From Bradyrhizobium sp. ORS 285 (GTDB lineage: Bacteria > Pseudomonadota > Alphaproteobacteria > Rhizobiales > Xanthobacteraceae): a stretch of 64,000 bases of DNA. Positions 2,164-63,518 of the stretch are shown here, piece by piece. Below the pieces are notes generated by a model, which ran no database searches, was not told the DNA's origin, and saw only the letters and a list, made by a program, of their open reading frames with translations. Location: positions 1,860,001-1,924,000 of the forward strand of contig NZ_LT859959.1 in NCBI RefSeq assembly GCF_900176205.1. The letters are read 5' to 3'. The stretch's first letter is position 1. The number at the start of each line of letters is the position of its first letter. A program made the translations under genes and the position numbers.

Positions 2164-3684
2164 ATGGAAGCCTTGGGTCTGCTGCTGCACGGGTTCGCGG
2201 TCCTCCTGACCTGGAAGACGCTGCTCTTGATGATGGTCGGGCTGGTGCTCGGCGTGTTCGTCGGCGTGCTGCCGGGGCTCGGGGGCCCCAACGGCGTCGC
2301 CATCCTGCTGCCGCTGACCTTCTCGATGGATCCCACCTCGGCCATCGTGATGCTGTCCTGCATCTATTGGGGCGCGCTGTTCGGCGGCGCCATCACCTCG
2401 ATCCTGTTCAACATCCCCGGCGAGGCCTGGTCGGTCGCGACTACCTTCGACGGCTATCCGATGGCGCAGCAGGGCAAGGCGGCGGAGGCGCTGACGGCGG
2501 CCTTCACCTCGTCCTTCATCGGCTCGCTGGTCGCGGTGCTGCTGATCACATTTCTTGCGCCGTGGATCTCGTCCTTCGCGCTGAAGTTCGGACCGCCGGA
2601 GTTCTTCGCGGTCTATCTGCTGACCTTCTGCTCCTTCGTCGGCCTGGGACGCGAGGACAAGCACAAGACCGTCATTGCGATGGCGCTCGGCCTGCTGCTT
2701 GCCGGCGTCGGCATGGATACGGTGTCGGGTCAGCTGCGCATGACGTTCGGCTCGACCGACCTCTTGCGCGGCATCAACTTCCTGGTCGCCGTGATCGGCC
2801 TGTTCGGCATCAGCGAGATCCTGCTGACCATGGAGGAGCGCCTCGCGCTGCGCGGCCACGCGGCGTCGATCTCGCTGCGCACGGTGCTCGCTGTGTGGAA
2901 GGACCTGCCGAAATACTGGATGACCCTGCTGCGCTCCTCGGTGATCGGCTGCTGGCTCGGCATCACCCCGGGCGGCGCGATCGCAGCGTCTTTCATGGGC
3001 TACAATCTCGCCAAGCGCTTCTCCAAGGACCAGAACAGCTTTGGCAAGGGCCGCATCGAAGGCGTGTTCGCGCCTGAGACCGCCGCGCATGCCTCGGGCA
3101 CCGCGGCGCTGCTGCCGATGCTCGCGCTCGGCATTCCCGGCTCGGGCACTGCGGCGATCCTGCTCGGCGGCCTGATGGTGTGGGGCCTCAATCCCGGACC
3201 GCTGTTGTTCGTCGAGCACAAGGATTTCGTCTGGGGCCTCATTGCGTCGATGTATCTCGGCAATGTCGTCGGTCTCGTGCTGGTGCTCTCGACCGTACCG
3301 ATCTTTGCTTCCATCCTTCGCGTGCCGTTCGCGGCGGTAGCGCCGATGATCGTGGTGTCCTGCGCGATCGGCGCCTATGCGATCCAGAACGCGATGTTCG
3401 ATGTCTGGCTGATGCTCGGCTTCGGTGTGGTCGGTTATGTCTTCAAGAAGATCAAGATCCCGCTGGCGCCGTTCACGCTCGCGCTGGTGCTGGGCAGCCG
3501 CGCCGAGGACGCCTTCCGGCAGTCGATGATCATTTCCGGCGGCAACATGAAGGTGTTCTGGGCGAACGGCCTGGTCGGCACCATCACGACGCTGGCGATC
3601 GTGCTGCTGTTCTGGCCGCTGATCGACCGACTGGTCGCGAGCTTCGGGAAGTCGACCCCGCCGGCGGCGAAGGTCGAGGCGTAG
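2164..3684 (+). CDS. tctA: TctA-family large membrane subunit of a TTT transporter
   Basis: 506 residues, standard TctA length, with about twelve membrane segments. Both conserved glycine-rich family motifs are visible: GVLPGLGGPNGVAILLPL near residue 35 with the following ALFGGAITSILFNIPGE, and the second-half counterpart LGIPGSGTAAILLGG near residue 320. These halves form the ion-coupled permease that moves the acid delivered by the binding protein. The ribosome binding site is weak and the gene sits just after a palindromic repeat, which may reduce or tune its expression relative to the two upstream genes. Confidence 0.93.
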   Translation: MEALGLLLHGFAVLLTWKTLLLMMVGLVLGVFVGVLPGLGGPNGVAILLPLTFSMDPTSAIVMLSCIYWGALFGGAITSILFNIPGEAWSVATTFDGYPMAQQGKAAEALTAAFTSSFIGSLVAVLLITFLAPWISSFALKFGPPEFFAVYLLTFCSFVGLGREDKHKTVIAMALGLLLAGVGMDTVSGQLRMTFGSTDLLRGINFLVAVIGLFGISEILLTMEERLALRGHAASISLRTVLAVWKDLPKYWMTLLRSSVIGCWLGITPGGAIAASFMGYNLAKRFSKDQNSFGKGRIEGVFAPETAAHASGTAALLPMLALGIPGSGTAAILLGGLMVWGLNPGPLLFVEHKDFVWGLIASMYLGNVVGLVLVLSTVPIFASILRVPFAAVAPMIVVSCAIGAYAIQNAMFDVWLMLGFGVVGYVFKKIKIPLAPFTLALVLGSRAEDAFRQSMIISGGNMKVFWANGLVGTITTLAIVLLFWPLIDRLVASFGKSTPPAAKVEA

Positions 3685-3689
3685 GGAAT

Positions 3690-3887
3690 AGGCCGCGGCG
3701 TCTCGGGCCTCATGGTTCGAGACGCGCCGCGGGACACCTTGTGTTTAGCCAATGTCGCCCGGGGCGCGGCGCTCCTCACCATCAGGGTAACCTTCTTGCC
3801 GCCAATCCTGCCCCTCGTCCTGAGGAGCCCGCCTCTTGGCGGGCGTCTCGAAGGACGGCCGCAGCGAGGTGAGCGCCAAGCCAGCTC
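3690..3887. repeat. Intergenic region with a CTGAGGAGC / GTCTCGAAGGACGG type repeat
   Basis: Between the converging transporter and autotransporter genes. It contains CCTCGTCCTGAGGAGC, then GCCCGCC ttg GGCGGGC-like arms, then GTCTCGAAGGACGG (about 3809-3856), with a partial copy of GGTTCGAGACGCGCC near 3715. The same family is seen at 58076-58116 and 58208-58253. No gene is apparent here. Confidence 0.65.
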
Positions 3888-6800
3888 TCACCACGCGTAG
3901 CGCACCGTTCCTTTTCCGGCATACGACCGCGTGACGTTCGACGCTTCGCTCTCGAATGTGGCCATCGCGCTCCAGCCGTTCAGCCAGCTCATCTCGACCG
4001 AGGTCGTCGTCAGTGCGGAGTCGCGTGCCTGCGCCGCGCCGTTGACGACGAAGCTCGCGCCCGGGAGCGTCTGGAAAGTGGCGGCCACCGAGCGCTCGGG
4101 ATTGAAGTCGTGCGCCCAGGCGAGGCGGCCGCGCAGAGTGAGAGCGCCATCCGCCAGCGCATAGGATTTGTCCGTACGCAGGCCGAGCTCGGTGCGCGTG
4201 TCGGTGACGGTCTTGCCGGCGTAGGTCAGGGCGAAGGTCCCGGCACCCGCTGTGGCTTGCTCGACGTAAGCCGGCAGGCGCAGGCTGGTGACTTGCGCGG
4301 CTGCATAAGGCGTGACGCCGATGCCGCCGAGCGGCGCGACGAGCCGAGTGCCGCCCTCGATCCGGCCGGTCCAGGCGTTGGCCTGATAGCTCGCGTGCAG
4401 CCGGTCGGTGCCGGAGATGGTGACGGTGCGGTCGGTCGTGACGTCCTGCCAGCCATAGGCCAGCGCCGCGCGCAGATAGCTCGGGCCGACATGGTGATGC
4501 AGATACGCGCCGGCCTGGAACAGGTCGGAGCGGCCCGAGCCGAGGCCATTGACGCTGAAACTGGTGCCGCCGCCGGCGAGCGCGAAGCCCGCGATGGTCT
4601 GCGGCGCGATCCGATAGTCGGCGCCGACGGCGGTGCCGGCTATCCGGCTGGTGGTGTCGTTCGAGCCGACGGTTGCATTGCCGCTGGTCGATTGCGCGCC
4701 GCCGAAGCCAGCGGCCCAGACGTTCCAGCGCTGCGCGAAGTCTGCGGGCTTTTCGTCCGGCAGCATCGCGAAGGCATCGGTGCGCTTGCGCGACGTCTCG
4801 GCATAGTTGGTCGCACCGCCGGCTTGACGTTGCGCGAAGGGATCGGTGAGCAGGCCGGCGAATTGGCTCATGGCGTTGAAGGTGGTCTGCTGCACGCCGG
4901 TGGCGCTCTCGCCGGACGCCTGCGTCAGGCCGACCTGATTGAGCTTGCCGAACACGACCGGAATGTCGCCGGTGCGATCGAAGAACGCCGACAGCGTATC
5001 GCCGACCGCCTTCTGATTGCCGTTGAGGCCGCCGGGCAGGGCGAAGGCAAGGACCAGGTCGAGATAGACGTTGTTGGCGTCGTAGCTCAGGCTGGTCTTG
5101 AAGCCGGAGGGCAGATTCGTCTTCACCACCGCGCCGAAGCTGCCGGAGAGGCCGCCGCTCGCCGTCAGAATGGTGTAGCGCTTGTCGACATAACCGCCGT
5201 TGGCGAAGGCCGCATTCACCGTGGCGCCGCCGAGGGTGGCCGACCCGGTGACGCTCGTGAATGAGGCTGTCGTTGGATTGAGCTGCACCAGATAGGCCGC
5301 GCCGGACTGGAACGCGAGATTCCCGACGATCGTCATCGACGAGCCGGCGGTGCCGTTACCGGGCGCGAGCGTGCCGCCATTGTTGATACTGACGGTCATT
5401 GGCGGATCGACGAGGCCCGCGCCCATCAGCGTGCCGCCGGCATTCACGGTCACTCCCGAGGTGTTGGTGATCGCACCGGCGATATCGAGCACGCCGCCAT
5501 TGATGATGGTGGCGCCAGTGTAGTTGTTCGTGCCGGTGAGCGTCATCCGGCCAGAGCCCGTCTTTGTAAAGCCGCCGCTGCCTGTGATCGCGCCGGAGAA
5601 CGTCGTGCTACCGTTGTTGCCGCCTGCCGTCAGCGTCGCCGCGCCGAGCAGCACATTGCCATTTCCCGCAAGCGAGCCGATGCTCTGGTCGAAGCCGTTG
5701 AGGTCCAGCGTGGCGCCTGATGCAATCATGAACGCGCTGGCCGAGGCGAGCACGCCGGAGGCGCCGGCCTGCAAGCTGCCCGCGCTGATCGTCGTCTGCC
5801 CGGTGTAGGTGGTCGGCCCGTCGAGCCGCATCGTGCCGGTGCCGACCTTGGTGAAGCCGCCGCTGCCCGAGATCGTGCCGGTGTAGCTCGTGCTGGAGTT
5901 GTCGCCGCCTGAGGTCAGCGTGCCCGCGCCGAGCAGCACTGCGCCGCCGCCGGTCAGCGAGGCAATGGTCTGATTGAAGCCGTTGAGATCGAGCGTGCCG
6001 CCATTGTCGACCTCGACGGAGCTCAGGGGGGCGAAGGCGCCGGCCGCACCTGCCCGCAACGTGCCGCCATCGACGATGGTTGGCCCGGTGTATGTGTTGG
6101 TGCCGCTGAGCGTGAGCACGCCGGGGCCGCTCTTGTCGAAGGTGCCGCTGCCCGAGATTGCGCCCGAGAACACGGTGGCGCCGCCATTGTCGCCGACCGC
6201 GAGCGAGCCGTTGCTGCCGAGCAGCACGTTGCCGCTGCCGCCCAATCCGCCGATGGTCTGGCCGGTGCCGTCGATATCGAGCGTCGCGCCGCTCGCGATC
6301 ATGTAGCTGCTGGCGACCGAGAGAACGCCGGACGCGCCGGTCCGCAACGTGCCGCCGCTGATGAAGGTGTCGCCGGCGTAGCTGGTGACCCCGGTCAGCG
6401 TGAGGATACCGGCGCCGAGCTTGGTCAGCCCACCGCTGCCGGTGATCGTGCCGCTGAGCGCGGCGTTGTTGCCGTTGGTGTCGAAGCTGCCGCCGCCGGC
6501 GTTGAGCGTGATGTTGCGGGCCGAACTGAAGCCCGCGAGAACTTGTAGCGTGCCGCCGCCGAAGGAGAGCCCGCCGGAGGCGGCGCCGAGATTGGCATCG
6601 GAGGAGACCGCGAGCGTGCCCTGGTTGATTGCCCACGGGGTGACGGCGCTCGTAGTGCCGGTCAAGGTCCAAGTGCCGGTGCCGGTCTTCACGAAGCTGG
6701 AGAAGCCCTGGTATTGCGCCGAGCCGCCGATATTGGAGATGTCGAACGTGCCGTTGGCCGCGCCGCCGAGCCGGAAGGTGTCGCTGCCCGCGCCGACCAC

Positions 6801-58820: not shown

Positions 58821-59750
58821 ATGCTCAGTCAGTTCTTCGCGCCACAGCTCATCGGCCTCTACATCCTGATCGGGGCCACCCTCTACGTCCACTTCCGCGG
58901 CAAGGAGCGGCTGCGCTTCGCCCGCCAGCTCGGCGATCACTCCACCTATCTCGCCCCCTACAATGTGCTGATGTATGCCGGCTCGGCCGTGCCGAACACG
59001 CCGGTAATCCCGGTCGAGCAGTTTCCGGAGCTCAAGACGCTCACCGACAATTGGCAGGAGATCCGCGAGGAGGCCGTGCGCCTGTTCGACGAGGGTTTTA
59101 TTCGCGCCGCCGCCAAGAACAACGATTGGGGCTTCTATTCCTTCTTCAAGAGCGGCTGGAAGCGCTTCTATCTGAAATGGTACGACGACTTCCTGCCGTC
59201 GGCGCGCACGCTGTGCCCGAAGACCGTGGAGCTACTGAACTCCATTCCGAATGTGCACGGCGCGATGTTCGCGATGCTGCCGCCCGGCGGCAAGCTCGGC
59301 GCCCACCGTGACCCCTTCGCCGGCTCGCTGCGCTATCACTTAGGCCTGGTGACGCCGAACTCCGACAAGTGCCGCATCGTGGTCGATGGCGTGCCCTGCG
59401 TCTGGCGCGACGGCGAGGCCTTCATGTTCGACGAGACCTTCATCCACAGCGCCGAGAACGCAACCGACATCAACCGCATCATCCTGTTCTGCGACGTCGA
59501 GCGCCCGATGAAGTACGGCGTCTTCACCGCCATGAACCGCTGGGTCAGCCACCACATCGTCAAGGCCTCGGCGACCCAGAACGTCGAGGGCGAGCACGTC
59601 GGCGTGCTGAACAAGGTGTTCGGCAAGCTGTATGAGTTTCATTTGGCCACGCGCAAGGTAAAGGCGTGGAATAGGACGGTGTATTACGCGGCGAAGTATA
59701 CGGTGACCGTGGCCATCGTGGGGGCGATCGTGGTGTCGGCGTTTCGGTGA
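58821..59750 (+). CDS. LpxO-like aspartyl/asparaginyl beta-hydroxylase
   Basis: 309 residues with hydrophobic segments at both ends (about 7-23 and 288-306) that anchor it in the inner membrane. The iron-2-oxoglutarate dioxygenase core has the ligands in GAHRDPF and IHSAENATDINRIILFCDV, with an arginine to hold 2-oxoglutarate. This family includes LpxO, which 2-hydroxylates a fatty acid of lipid A. A role in lipid A or another membrane lipid is likely. Confidence 0.88.
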   Translation: MLSQFFAPQLIGLYILIGATLYVHFRGKERLRFARQLGDHSTYLAPYNVLMYAGSAVPNTPVIPVEQFPELKTLTDNWQEIREEAVRLFDEGFIRAAAKNNDWGFYSFFKSGWKRFYLKWYDDFLPSARTLCPKTVELLNSIPNVHGAMFAMLPPGGKLGAHRDPFAGSLRYHLGLVTPNSDKCRIVVDGVPCVWRDGEAFMFDETFIHSAENATDINRIILFCDVERPMKYGVFTAMNRWVSHHIVKASATQNVEGEHVGVLNKVFGKLYEFHLATRKVKAWNRTVYYAAKYTVTVAIVGAIVVSAFR

Positions 59751-59759
59751 GGAGAGGAG

Positions 59760-59831
59760 GGCGGATTAGCGGAGCGTAATCCGCCGCCCTAGAACGTGAA
59801 CGGTGGCGGATTGGGCCTTCGGCTAATCCGT
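59760..59831. repeat. Inverted repeat, GGCGGATTAGC / TAATCCGCC family
   Basis: GGCGGATTAGCGGAGCGTAATCCGCC at the left and GGCGGATTGGGCCTTCGGCTAATCCG at the right. It marks the left edge of the AT-rich islet that starts with the ATPase gene. Confidence 0.82.
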
Positions 59832-59948
59832 AGTTCGCTTTCTTGTGCGCAGTTGTCGGTTTCGGCCCCTGGCTGACCTGCTGTCCTTTAAGCGTGCTAA
59901 GATGTCGCCTTCTTCAGGAAATTCGTTGATGGCTGCCGGAGATTTTTC

Positions 59949-61316
59949 ATGAAAATATCATTTGAGAATTTTCGTGGCTTTAAAGCCGTCGGTCCGACAG
60001 AGGTTCGGCCTATCACGCTGCTGGTGGGTGAGAATAGCTCGGGAAAAACATCGTTCCAAGCAGCCTTGCGCTATCTTCTTTCAGTTAGTTCATTTCTATC
60101 GCAGGAATCAACGGGATTTAATCAGTCTCCATTTTTGCTTGGTGGGTTCGAGGACATCGCTTACAGCCGTGTAGGGCGCCGAGGAACTAATTCGAATTAT
60201 TTCTCCATCGCTGTTCAGAGAAGAACGCATCGCATGAGCGATCGAAATTCAGTGCCGCTTGCCGAAAATATCGCGGGCGAGTATCGAATGTCACTTCGGT
60301 TCTTTGATTGGCTGGGGCAGCCTGCGTTGCAGGCGGTTGAATTCGCCGTTGATGCCAAGGCGGTGCTGATTGATTTCGTCGAAATGAAGGTTGTCTTCAA
60401 AGATCAAGAAAAAAATCGATCTTACGAATACGAAGTTGCACATGAAATGCATCCTCAGCTTGAGCAAACAAGACGTATCCCGTCTAGTATGGGAATAATT
60501 ATTTCGCAGCTTTTCTTTTTGACTTTCGGAAGGGATATCCCATCGCGCCGGGTGATCCTTTCAACTGATGCTGGAAATGAGGTGGAGTCATTCAAGGTGG
60601 TTCTAAGTACAGCTTACCACGTTTTTTTTAATTCAAGCGGTGACTTGCGAGTTTTGGCGCTTTCTCCGATGCGCACTGAGCCGAAGCGGGTGTATGAGGT
60701 CTTAGATGCGCAAGCTTCTCCCATGGGGGCTCACGTGCCAATTCGGCTGGCTCAGGAAAAAGTTCAGGAGATCGAAAGTTGGAACTTAAAGCGGGACTAT
60801 TTCTCTCGGTTCGGCAAAGAGGCTGGACTATTTTCCAACATTGATATTCGAAGATTGGGCTCAACGCAGAATGATCCCTTCCAGATTATGGTGTCTGTGG
60901 GTGGAAAGAAGCGCAATATTGTAGATGTCGGCTATGGGGTCAGTCAGGTTTTGCCTCTGCTGTACGAAATGGCGGAGACGAGTCGACGCAAGCTATTGCT
61001 GATGCAGCAGCCGGAAGTTCATTTGCATCCCAAAGCTCAGGCGGAGCTTGGGAGTTTAATTGTTGATACGCATTCCCGTATGAAGCATAATTTCGTGGTC
61101 GAAACTCATAGCGATTTTATCGTCGATCGTATTCGGAATCATATCCGTTTAGGCGAGTTGAAGCCTTCTCAGGTGTCGCTCTTGTACTTTCATCGTCCGA
61201 AAGATGAGCTTGTAATTTCGCATATTGAGTTGGACGACCGCGGGGATGTTGTAAGTCCCCCTATTGATTATAGGGACTTTTTCTATCGCGAAGAAAAGAA
61301 TTTGTTCGGGTTTTGA
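59949..61316 (+). CDS. OLD/DUF3696-like AAA ATPase, first gene of an AT-rich islet
   Basis: 455 residues. ABC/SMC-type ATPase: Walker A GENSSGKTS at residues 27-35 directly after the N-terminal FENFRGF strand, signature-like GYGVSQVLPLLYEM near 330, Walker B LLLMQQPEVHLHP, and the switch region VVETHSDFIVDRI. The C-terminal LLYFHRPKDELVISHIELDDRGDV and FF.REE ending fit DUF3696. Base composition is clearly more AT-rich than all neighbours, and codon use differs. A GGAG box precedes the ATG. The stop overlaps the upstream edge of the PIN gene. ATPases of this type are core parts of several phage-defence systems. Confidence 0.88.
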   Translation: MKISFENFRGFKAVGPTEVRPITLLVGENSSGKTSFQAALRYLLSVSSFLSQESTGFNQSPFLLGGFEDIAYSRVGRRGTNSNYFSIAVQRRTHRMSDRNSVPLAENIAGEYRMSLRFFDWLGQPALQAVEFAVDAKAVLIDFVEMKVVFKDQEKNRSYEYEVAHEMHPQLEQTRRIPSSMGIIISQLFFLTFGRDIPSRRVILSTDAGNEVESFKVVLSTAYHVFFNSSGDLRVLALSPMRTEPKRVYEVLDAQASPMGAHVPIRLAQEKVQEIESWNLKRDYFSRFGKEAGLFSNIDIRRLGSTQNDPFQIMVSVGGKKRNIVDVGYGVSQVLPLLYEMAETSRRKLLLMQQPEVHLHPKAQAELGSLIVDTHSRMKHNFVVETHSDFIVDRIRNHIRLGELKPSQVSLLYFHRPKDELVISHIELDDRGDVVSPPIDYRDFFYREEKNLFGF

Positions 61317-61318
61317 AG

Positions 61319-61744
61319 ATGTGCCTTATCATCGATAACAATGTTGCTCACGAGGTTGTTCAAAAATCGCGATCAGCGATGCCAATAATAAAGGCATTGG
61401 ATTGCCGAAAGGTCATGCTTGCCACGGGCGGGCTGCACTTGCAGGAGTTGCTCGGCAATAAGATGGGGCGATTGATAAAGGAGCTTATTAGAAATGGAAG
61501 GGCGAGAAATTTCTCGGGTCCAATAATTGAAAGCAAGACGAAGGAATACGAAGCTAACGAAAGCGTGCGTTCAGATGATCCTCATATTCTCGCTTTGGCT
61601 GCGGTTTCGGGGGCCAGAGTTCTTTACACGAGGGATAAGGATTTGATTGGCGACTTTCGAAATAAGAGTCTGATCAGCCCTAGAGGCTCTATATATTCGA
61701 GCGAAAGGAACGAGCATTTGTTGCGGCGATGTTGCTCCTGTTGA
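61319..61744 (+). CDS. PIN-like nuclease, partner of the ATPase; C-terminus possibly frameshifted
   Basis: 141 residues from ATG 61319, two bases after the ATPase stop. PIN-type acidic residues: CLIIDNNVAHEV (Asp6) near the start and a C-terminal SDDPHILALAAVSGARVLYTRDKDLIGDF, where the paired aspartates would hold metal ions. The AT-rich composition matches the ATPase. The present reading frame ends in LLRRCCSC; skipping one C near 61725 continues as DVAPVDLVRWLEEFRSKCAG, which reads like true protein, so a single-base frameshift is suspected. Confidence 0.77.
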   Translation: MCLIIDNNVAHEVVQKSRSAMPIIKALDCRKVMLATGGLHLQELLGNKMGRLIKELIRNGRARNFSGPIIESKTKEYEANESVRSDDPHILALAAVSGARVLYTRDKDLIGDFRNKSLISPRGSIYSSERNEHLLRRCCSC

Positions 61745-62280
61745 CCTCGTTCGTTGGTTGGAGGAATTTCGTTCGAAATGCGCGGGTCAGGGGGGGGCGT
61801 CGTGCAAATCACACCCATCGTGCCAAGTCCTGTCAAGATCTTCCGGAAACATAAATCGCTTGATATTTTCGCCAAATCAGCATTACAGTCCACCCATCCC
61901 GTTGCACGGTAGGGGACGGTTCGCGGTCGTCACGGACGTTGGCAGCGGGGAGCGGTGGACGCGGGCGGCGGCGTGCTGTTAGCACGGACGAACGTTTGTC
62001 TCGCGGACGGTGAAGGCGTGTGGTTCTGATACTCCGACGCTAGTATCAACCCGGCAACGATGCCTAACGGCATCGCGTTGGGGATGGTGGCCAGAAAGCC
62101 CGGTGCACCAGGAAGAGCGCGCTATAGCCTGTTAAAACCATCGCGCGGGGAGGGCCGGGTGTGTTCGGCCAGACCTGTGGTGACTGCCGCCTGCTTTTTT
62201 TCTGCAGGCGGGCCACGGGCGCGGCCAGCGCCCGGCCTTCCCTGCGCCCTCCATTCTCAGGAGGGCGGGAGTTGGAGCAT
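61745..62280. repeat. Structured, probably multi-copy non-coding element downstream of the ATPase-PIN pair
   Basis: No gene fits here. The stretch around 62060-62240 (GATGCCTAACGGCATC, GTGGCCAGAAAGCCCGG, TATAGCCTGTTAAAACCATCGCGCGG, then CCGCCTGC-TTTTTTTCT-GCAGGCGG at 62187-62211) resembles a dispersed sequence I recall from Bradyrhizobium genomes. It contains several hairpins. Copy number could not be tested here. Confidence 0.55.
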
Positions 62281-62410
62281 CACTCGGGCGCGGGATGCGT
62301 CGCGAGAAGGTGGATGCTCGTTCCCTCGACGCGATGCTGTTTGAGATTGTGGAAATGATGACGCGGCTTTCGGCGTCGTGAGCGAACTCGTCCGGAGTCC
62401 TCATGACGCC

Positions 62411-62441
62411 CCTGGATTGCTTCGCTGCGCTCGCAATGACG
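62411..62441. repeat. Half copy of the GTCATTGCGAGC palindromic repeat
   Basis: GGATTGCTTCGCTGCGCTCGCAATGACGG is one arm of the family seen complete at 2061-2140 and 40012-40085. The partner arm is missing. Confidence 0.8.
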
Positions 62442-62477
62442 GAATATGCGGCCGACCGCGGGGGCGGTGAGCTCCCC

Positions 62478-62698
62478 TCCCCCTTGCGGGGAGGGGTTGG
62501 GGGTGGGGGTCTCCGGGCGATGACGTTTGTTGGGACGCGGGGGATCGTTGGGAGCGGTGCTGCGGAAGAGCGTCGGAGAAAGCGGTGCGGTGGTCGCTGT
62601 GGGAGTGGGGTCGTTGCGCGACTTGATCTTGGCGGATCGAGGCAGCGGATTTCGGGGACCCCCAACCCCCGACCCCTCCCCGCAAGGGGGAGGGGAGT
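62478..62698. repeat. Long inverted repeat, CTCCCCTCCCCCTTGCGGGGAGGGG family
   Basis: CTCCCCTCCCCCTTGCGGGG...GTTGGGGGTGGGGGTC at 62478-62512 is mirrored by GGACCCCCAACCCCCGACCCCTCC...AAGGGGGAGGGGAG at 62657-62698. About 145 bp lie between the arms. Confidence 0.82.
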
Positions 62699-62744
62699 GG
62701 ACCGGTCGTGGTGCGAGAGCGTGCCCATTGCGAAGCCCCTAAAG

Positions 62745-62773
62745 AAAAAGGCCGCGCTGTGCGTGGCCTTTTT
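62745..62773. terminator. Bidirectional rho-independent terminator
   Basis: AAAAAGGCCGCGC pairs with GCGTGGCCTTTTT (one wobble) around TGT, giving T-runs on both strands. It ends the minus-strand hydrolase gene 47 bp after its stop. Confidence 0.9.
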
Positions 62774-62819
62774 GAAAGCTAGGTCTGCGGCGGTGGCCGC
62801 CGCGCGAGGCGTTGGCGGC

Positions 62820-63518
62820 TTACTTCGCCGTCGGCCCGATGCTCACCTTCAGCGTGCCGACGCCGTCGACGCCGCATTCAATCTTGTCGCCGGCGACGAC
62901 CGCCGCGACGCCGGCCGGGGTGCCGGTCATGATGATGTCGCCGGCGGCGAGCTCGACCTGTTGGGAGAGCTTCCAGATGATCTCCGGCACGTTCCAGATC
63001 AGCTCGGAGAGGTCGCCGGTCTGGCGCTCGGTGCCGTTGACCGATAGCCAGATCTTGCCCTTCGACGGGTGGCCGATCTTGGCCGCGGGCACCACGGCCG
63101 AGCAGGGCGCGGAGTGATCGAAGGATTTGCCGACCTCCCAGGGGCGCTGCATCTTGCGCGAGGCGAGCTGCAGGTCGCGGCGGGTGAGGTCGATGCCGAC
63201 GGCGTAGCCGTAGACATGGTCGAGCGCCTTGTCGGTCGGAATGTTGAGGCCGCCGCTCTTGAGCGCGACCACCAGCTCGACCTCGTGATGCATGTCCTGG
63301 GTCAGCGGCGGGTAGGGGATCACGGCGCCCTCGGGCGCCAGCATGTCGGCGTGCTTCGCAAAGAAGAACGGCGGGTCGCGCTCGTCATTGCCCATCTCGC
63401 GGATGTGCTCGAGATAGTTGCGGCCGACGCACCAGATGCGGCGGACCGGGAAGACACCGGCTTCGCCCTGGACGGGAAGCGAAGGCTGCGGGAAGGCCGG
63501 GATGACGGTGGAGCTCAT
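62820..63518 (-). CDS. Fumarylacetoacetate hydrolase family protein
   Basis: 232 residues. IWCVGRNYLEHIREMGND near the N-terminus and FFFAKHADMLAPEG, then MHHEVELVVAL (metal-binding Glu residues), GYAVGIDLTRRDLQ with the Asp ligand, WEVGKSFDHSAP and IIMTGTPAGV are the family motifs. The short single-domain form matches fumarylpyruvate or acylpyruvate hydrolases of the gentisate type. No ring-cleavage genes adjoin, so the substrate is unproven. Confidence 0.92.
   Translation of the reverse strand: MSSTVIPAFPQPSLPVQGEAGVFPVRRIWCVGRNYLEHIREMGNDERDPPFFFAKHADMLAPEGAVIPYPPLTQDMHHEVELVVALKSGGLNIPTDKALDHVYGYAVGIDLTRRDLQLASRKMQRPWEVGKSFDHSAPCSAVVPAAKIGHPSKGKIWLSVNGTERQTGDLSELIWNVPEIIWKLSQQVELAAGDIIMTGTPAGVAAVVAGDKIECGVDGVGTLKVSIGPTAK

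Follow-up and report, generated by a model that had tools for sequence, protein, structure and literature searches.

The stretch of DNA analysed here (the window, 64,000 bases in length, spanning bases 1860001-1924000 of a genome of 7.80 Mb in a single contig) contains a low-GC islet in which two adjacent genes encode an OLD-type ABC ATPase and a PIN nuclease. This ATPase-PIN pair is real, conserved and horizontally spread, and it probably constitutes an abortive-infection system. The explanation that we favour, and hold to be likely, is that the islet carries a stand-alone two-gene anti-phage module, acquired by horizontal transfer, in which a sensor ATPase and a PIN RNase would act through abortive infection. 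The features of the locus are listed in Table 1.

Table 1. Features of the ATPase-PIN islet and its surroundings (positions counted from the first base of the window)
Feature	Position	Strand	Evidence and remarks
Left flanking gene, aspartyl/asparaginyl beta-hydroxylase (Asp_Arg_Hydrox)	58821..59750	+	PF05118 8.1e-47; host-like composition; outside the system
Left palindromic repeat (I5), dispersed	59755..59790	no strand	13 genome copies of the core at ≤2 mismatches
Low-GC islet enclosing the ATPase and PIN genes	59850..61900	no strand	Composition profile, window statistics
OLD/PtuA-type ABC ATPase, 455 aa, ATG start, ORF intact; predicted sensor/regulator	59949..61316	+	ORF and motifs
PIN-fold nuclease, 141 aa from the conserved MC start, ORF intact; predicted effector	61319..61744	+	Predicted structure
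Right inverted repeat (I1), dispersed	62465..62704	no strand	Two 45-nt arms, 150 nt spacing
Right flanking gene, fumarylacetoacetate hydrolase family (FAA_hydrolase)	62820..63518	-	PF01557 1.3e-53; outside the system

The islet stands out from its surroundings in base composition. GC content is 47.0% across 59949-61744, compared with 64.9% for the window, and when composition was measured in 1800-base windows (mean 0.649, sd 0.032), the minimum of 0.469 lay inside the islet. GC3 is 0.49 and 0.52 for the ATPase and PIN genes, and the genes on either side reach 0.90 and 0.93. The composition profile thus confirmed the sharp shifts that an earlier reading made from the letters alone (hereafter the sequence-only reading) had placed at about 59850 and 61900. 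That reading also took the palindromic repeats on both sides as consistent with acquisition; the repeats are present, but both are dispersed repeats and have no bearing on acquisition. The core 17-mer of the right repeat, CTCCCCGCAAGGGGGAG, has 71 genome copies at ≤1 mismatch, and its copies frequently face one another in twos at a distance of about 75-420 bases, as a dispersed element. Given that the two flanking palindromes are distinct repeats, each dispersed through the genome, they were ruled out as the ends of one element. Insertion at a tRNA was also rejected, there being no tRNA inside the window.

The first protein, described earlier as an ABC/SMC-type ATPase, was borne out as an ABC ATPase of the OLD/PtuA type. 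Its Walker A motif GENSSGKTS, which had been read correctly, occupies residues 27-35, and is followed by the signature GYGVSQ (residues 328-333), by QQPEVHLHP with the catalytic Glu356, and by the switch His387. Across the family alignment (a selection of 52 ATPases), these motifs are conserved and the catalytic residues are invariant; the least conserved part is the middle of the protein, residues 106-210. The DUF3696-like end that had also been claimed amounts to a Pfam match that stays below threshold, with 12.5 bits against a cut-off of 22. When the ATPase was compared with the PADLOC models, HEC-03B was matched at 5.5e-25, though NsnB, the best match (2.1e-36), and PDC-M55A scored higher. 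A full-length relative with 37% identity (P0072) carries the name of Bradyrhizobium yuanmingense.

For the second protein, the PIN-like fold that had been proposed was confirmed in a confident predicted structure (pLDDT 93.5), which is VapC-like. The four acidic residues of a PIN domain are present as D6, E43, D87 and D106, and the catalytic acids are kept in 75-76 of the 76 rows of the alignment; predicted structure and alignment together place the protein among the PIN domains. A separate alignment of the PIN family is a selection as well, with 75 proteins out of 124 available. Database searches with this protein gave little: its Pfam PIN match is sub-threshold (14.6 bits, cut-off 23.6), no PADLOC model matches it at E ≤ 1, and phmmer against solved structures returned two designed repeat proteins only. 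Foldseek gave no match below 0.001 (best 1.3e-3), with most of the top rows nonetheless being PIN proteins. The protein also has a conserved C-terminal tail ending in Cys141. Two cysteines are near-invariant, Cys2 in 75 of 76 rows and Cys141 in all 76, and they could possibly take part in a disulphide, bind a metal or belong to a binding tail.

Linkage of the two genes was then assessed beyond the window. Here, both ORFs are intact and two bases lie between the ATPase stop and the PIN ATG, as the sequence-only reading had noted. For the genome scan, the PIN family alone was used as the query, and 80 of 106 loci were kept. At 75 of these 80 loci, the ATPase ORF ends no more than 200 bases from the PIN start. 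Because two of the loci (L046 and L064) hold two tandem pairs each, the 75 loci yield 77 pairs, 59 of them with a gap of -1 to +5 bases. Five PIN loci were without an ATPase; four of these (L019, L021, L060 and L077) start no more than about 120 bases from the end of their contig, and the fifth, L038 (PIN at 2278-2718), is the sole true exception among the 80, having no ATPase despite 2.2 kb of upstream sequence. Going by the titles of their records, the 80 loci span 15 named phyla, with two loci carrying no phylum label. Moreover, pairwise distances of the ATPases and of the PIN proteins were correlated with a Mantel r of 0.80, compared with a maximum of 0.26 in 1000 permutations (76 rows); four pairs in which the ATPase is short or split (L028, L054, L055 and L057) were excluded from this test and from the joint tree. 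For two pairs of homologues from the protein searches (P0046/P0002 and P0047/P0003), pairing was made via records of equal size rather than by DNA reading. The phylum label changed 27 times on the joint tree, where the minimum possible is 13 and the shuffled mean 46, on a tree that has many weakly supported branches and includes bins that can contain foreign contigs; phyla are only partly clustered. As seen from the PIN side, the ATPase and the PIN protein are one unit. From the ATPase side, the linkage is looser. ATPase relatives (6025 scored) far outnumber PIN relatives (44), so that most ATPases must have other partners, and in the class sample, one (G536) of the three genomes carrying the ATPase at 1e-40 lacks such a PIN gene beside it.

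At least 13 of the 80 loci were matched to sponge symbionts, 11 by three-letter isolate codes and 2 by name, and the prefixes of 23 further loci are ones that we take to denote sponge metagenomes. By isolate code or name, many carriers within L007-L086 seem to be symbionts of sponges and come from phyla that are not related, a count that may be shaped by the make-up of the collection. The three-letter codes resemble sponge species named in the accessible part of PMC8163846, where sponge symbionts are described as enriched in defence genes.

Of 99 other genomes drawn as relatives of the window's genome, which we take for Bradyrhizobium or close kin, 59 belong to its genus. Within the genus, the PIN gene was found in 2 of 265 genomes, namely the window's own and one with a decayed copy. 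The decayed copy (L090 in G304, 1053-1791) belongs to another species of the genus, and all that is left in it is the first part of the ATPase gene and the last part of the PIN gene. In the class sample, 3 of 385 genomes carried the PIN gene, the window's own included, and the ATPase adjoins it in all three. The insertion site was examined in relatives of the window's genome. Fifteen relatives have the two flanking genes less than 1 kb apart in the same arrangement as in the window, as read from the search results; in the 13 of these that were compared, both flanking genes align around a gap of 90-690 bases, with no match to any part of the islet's two genes. In 16 further relatives, the flanking genes are 1.3-9.6 kb apart, and the genes between them are different ones, metabolic for the most part (read by eye), with no ATPase or PIN of either family. 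At one locus (L135), a transposase-like gene, also judged by eye, lies between the beta-hydroxylase and FAA hydrolase genes. Given that the spacing and content of the flanks differ between species of the genus, the islet occupies a variable site (59750-62820). Acquisition by transfer, as originally suggested, is supported. The pair is spread horizontally, with a patchy distribution. No match to the pair was found among 50,697 records of phages and 72,556 of plasmids and none was confirmed in viral contigs, and thus no mobile carrier was seen.

The neighbourhood of the pair was surveyed with PADLOC (E ≤ 1e-20) for 252 of 491 ORFs lying within 4.5 kb, at loci L007 to L048; the ORFs were chosen by a longest-ORF rule, and the counts stand without a matched background. 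Among the matches listed were HEC-01A, HEC-01B, type IIG and type I restriction enzymes, the DISARM components DrmA, DrmD and DrmMI, BrxHI, PDC-M19, PDC-S01 and HmaC. Some of the neighbour matches are probably cross-hits, and those to PtuA, AriA, mad2 and RmrA may be of this kind. When HmaC of L027 was compared by blastp with the 491 ORFs, homologues with 59-70% identity were found at L033, L046, L056, L064, L076 and L081, so that, with L027 itself, this Hma defence ATPase lies no further than 1.8 kb from a pair at 7 of the 75 paired loci. These seven are not all independent, since L046 and L064 are close kin. In both of these Rhodothermales loci (2512-6471 and 2515-6471, respectively), the HmaC homologue lies 1.2 kb beyond the tandem ATPase-PIN pairs, and the L046 copy is a DUF499 protein by Pfam. 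The same stretch of L027 also encodes an OLD-type ATPase and a DUF4276 protein. In the window, the pair stands alone, outside any BREX-type locus: no defence neighbour was found among its 50 ORFs, for which PADLOC gave four mad3 matches only, taken for ordinary ABC ATPases. This negative result weighs against the favoured explanation, as do the lack of a match in phage and plasmid records, the looser linkage from the ATPase side, the exception L038 and the other roles of PIN proteins. Given that the two genes adjoin in many phyla and sometimes lie near defence genes, an anti-phage system that has yet to be named, and that is related to systems suspected before, is probable. The candidate defence system of the sequence-only reading is thus upheld as a candidate, and the findings on which it could have foundered went its way: no named system matched the pair, the PIN fold was confirmed, and the rarity of the gene within the genus held.

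PIN nucleases usually cut RNA, and PARIS, Septu and WonAB are among the systems in which an ATPase of the OLD/PtuA-type fold works with a nuclease encoded separately. The best reading, by analogy, is that the pair would have a mode of action resembling that of one of these systems. The two folds, as predicted models, the intact catalytic residues and the linkage are established; beyond these, we infer protection against phage, together with the following course of events. The ATPase would form the head-to-head dimer usual for its fold, its fast-evolving middle region would sense some sign of infection, and, in a complex of the two proteins, it would hold or license the bound PIN protein. Upon activation, the PIN domain would cut RNA, most likely tRNA or rRNA, and the cleavage would stop translation and so abort the infection. 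The variable middle of the ATPase is where phage sensing might be sought, and the PIN tail where effector control might be. A more specific reading is possible, and we offer it tentatively: in an unnamed, phylum-crossing system, an OLD-type ATPase may control its own PIN subfamily via the C-terminal tail (Gly123, Tyr126 and Cys141) and the N-terminal Cys2, this subfamily having an origin separate from that of the PIN-like effector in HEC-03 and being shared widely among sponge symbionts. If so, the ATPase lineage would have recruited PIN nucleases at least twice.

The strongest alternative is that the pair belongs, as a divergent form, to HEC-03, a PADLOC candidate embedded in Hma loci, or else to the pairs of OLD-ABC ATPase and PIN recorded from BREX and related loci, in which case it would be known in outline already. 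Although this alternative is compatible with our preferred explanation of a stand-alone anti-phage module, we consider it rather unlikely. The ATPase is homologous to that of HEC-03 over its full length (profile comparison 100%), and all 12 HEC-03A loci share the order of a related ATPase upstream followed by a PIN-like protein. The HEC-03A protein itself looks like a divergent PIN nuclease at L109-L120, with a Pfam PIN match in one of seven proteins, below the cut-off; it has a DTNV motif at its start and D6, E55, D110 and D113 in 7 of 7 aligned proteins. However, it is 160-180 aa in length and has neither the DPHI motif nor the C-terminal Cys motif. In addition, the HEC-03A model does not match the window PIN at E ≤ 1 and gives no match in the window's genome at 1e-5. 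When PADLOC was run over 75 members of the PIN family, HEC-03A matched 1 (0.026), PDC-M11A matched 2 (best 0.00074), and two further models matched one member each. Comparison of the HEC-03A and window PIN family profiles by hhalign gave a probability of just 2.7% (E 0.017), with D6, E43 and D87 in register. For the second form of this alternative, HmaC/DUF499 genes occur near some family loci, and pairs of OLD-ABC ATPases with PIN nucleases are named in the available portion of PMC12839542.

That the pair is instead a toxin-antitoxin module, in which a VapC-like PIN toxin is countered by an ATPase that serves solely as its antitoxin, is improbable. PIN proteins do act in toxin-antitoxin pairs, as they do in RNA processing, and the effector shares its fold with that of VapBC. 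However, VapB is a small DNA-binding antitoxin, whereas the partner here is a large ATPase of 455 aa encoded upstream. No VapB was found, the ATPase preceding the PIN gene both here and in 75 of 80 loci, and VapBC was rejected. Moreover, the catalytic residues of the ATPase are invariant, which simple sequestration would not require, and none of the 72,556 plasmid records gave a match. The nuclease of WonAB is toxic only with its own ATPase, and simple sequestration is ruled out by the authors of that work, as described in the accessible part of PMC12137116. Least probable is a non-defence cargo pair, such as a module for ATP-driven RNA processing or for stress: by Pfam, metabolic genes are frequent around the pair in relatives, and they flank it in the window too, but the distribution is very patchy, the pair has decayed in one relative, and tandem copies and nearby Hma genes fit conflict genes better.

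The favoured module was finally set beside the systems that it most resembles. Menshen is composed of three genes, and the window ATPase scores best in PADLOC against its NsnB. No Menshen model matched among the 50 ORFs of the window at 1e-20, the flanking genes being Asp_Arg_Hydrox and FAA_hydrolase, and Menshen, which combines a DUF262 gene with an OLD-type nuclease according to the portion of PMC10952713 available, was rejected. Ten loci of the next-best model, PDC-M55A, comprised six with a DUF262-like gene (by eye), three with a PIN-like gene of the HEC-03A type and one of unclear type. Membership of PARIS was rejected on the effector, the second protein being modelled as PIN, with no PADLOC match at E ≤ 1, where PARIS has the TOPRIM protein AriB; the match of the ATPase to AriA is partial. 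Septu was rejected on the same grounds, since the effector PtuB of Septu and of the retron type I-A PtuAB is an HNH nuclease; PtuAB of Retron-Eco7 depletes tRNA-Tyr (both from the accessible part of PMC11555353). WonAB and PD-T4-4 resemble the pair in combining an ATPase with a small nuclease, but that nuclease is PD-(D/E)XK in WonAB and a related one in PD-T4-4, against a modelled PIN here, and neither assignment was retained; PD-T4-4_A has partial similarity only to the window ATPase. In the excerpted text of PMC12137116, WonAB is described as an OLD-ABC ATPase and a nuclease that abort infection by a translation stop. That PIN domains can serve in defence is indicated by DS-3 and DS-5, which protect against phage and require their catalytic residues (PMC13092281, in part). 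Also close in plan are the pairs of PMC12839542, where, in the part available, BREX and related loci are described as holding OLD-ABC ATPases whose partner is an HNH, PD-(D/E)XK or PIN nuclease, with 594 taxa for the three pairings together. The window pair has this plan of an OLD-type ABC ATPase beside a PIN nuclease, and HmaC/DUF499 lies near 7 of 75 loci of its family; the pairs described there are auxiliary effectors, however, whereas the window copy stands alone. The earlier remark that no described system was known with exactly this ATPase and a PIN effector held in that no named system matched, but was overstated, given that these pairs and HEC-03 make the plan known in silico. By sequence comparison, the PIN protein of the window lacks a matching PADLOC model, and no name for its family or for the stand-alone form was found in PADLOC, Pfam, NCBIfam and mainly open-access literature. 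Taken together, these comparisons turn a one-genome curiosity into a defined family of 77 ATPase-PIN pairs at 75 loci and in 15 named phyla, and extend the range of effector folds swapped by such sensor ATPases (TOPRIM, HNH and PD-(D/E)XK) by a distinct PIN family.
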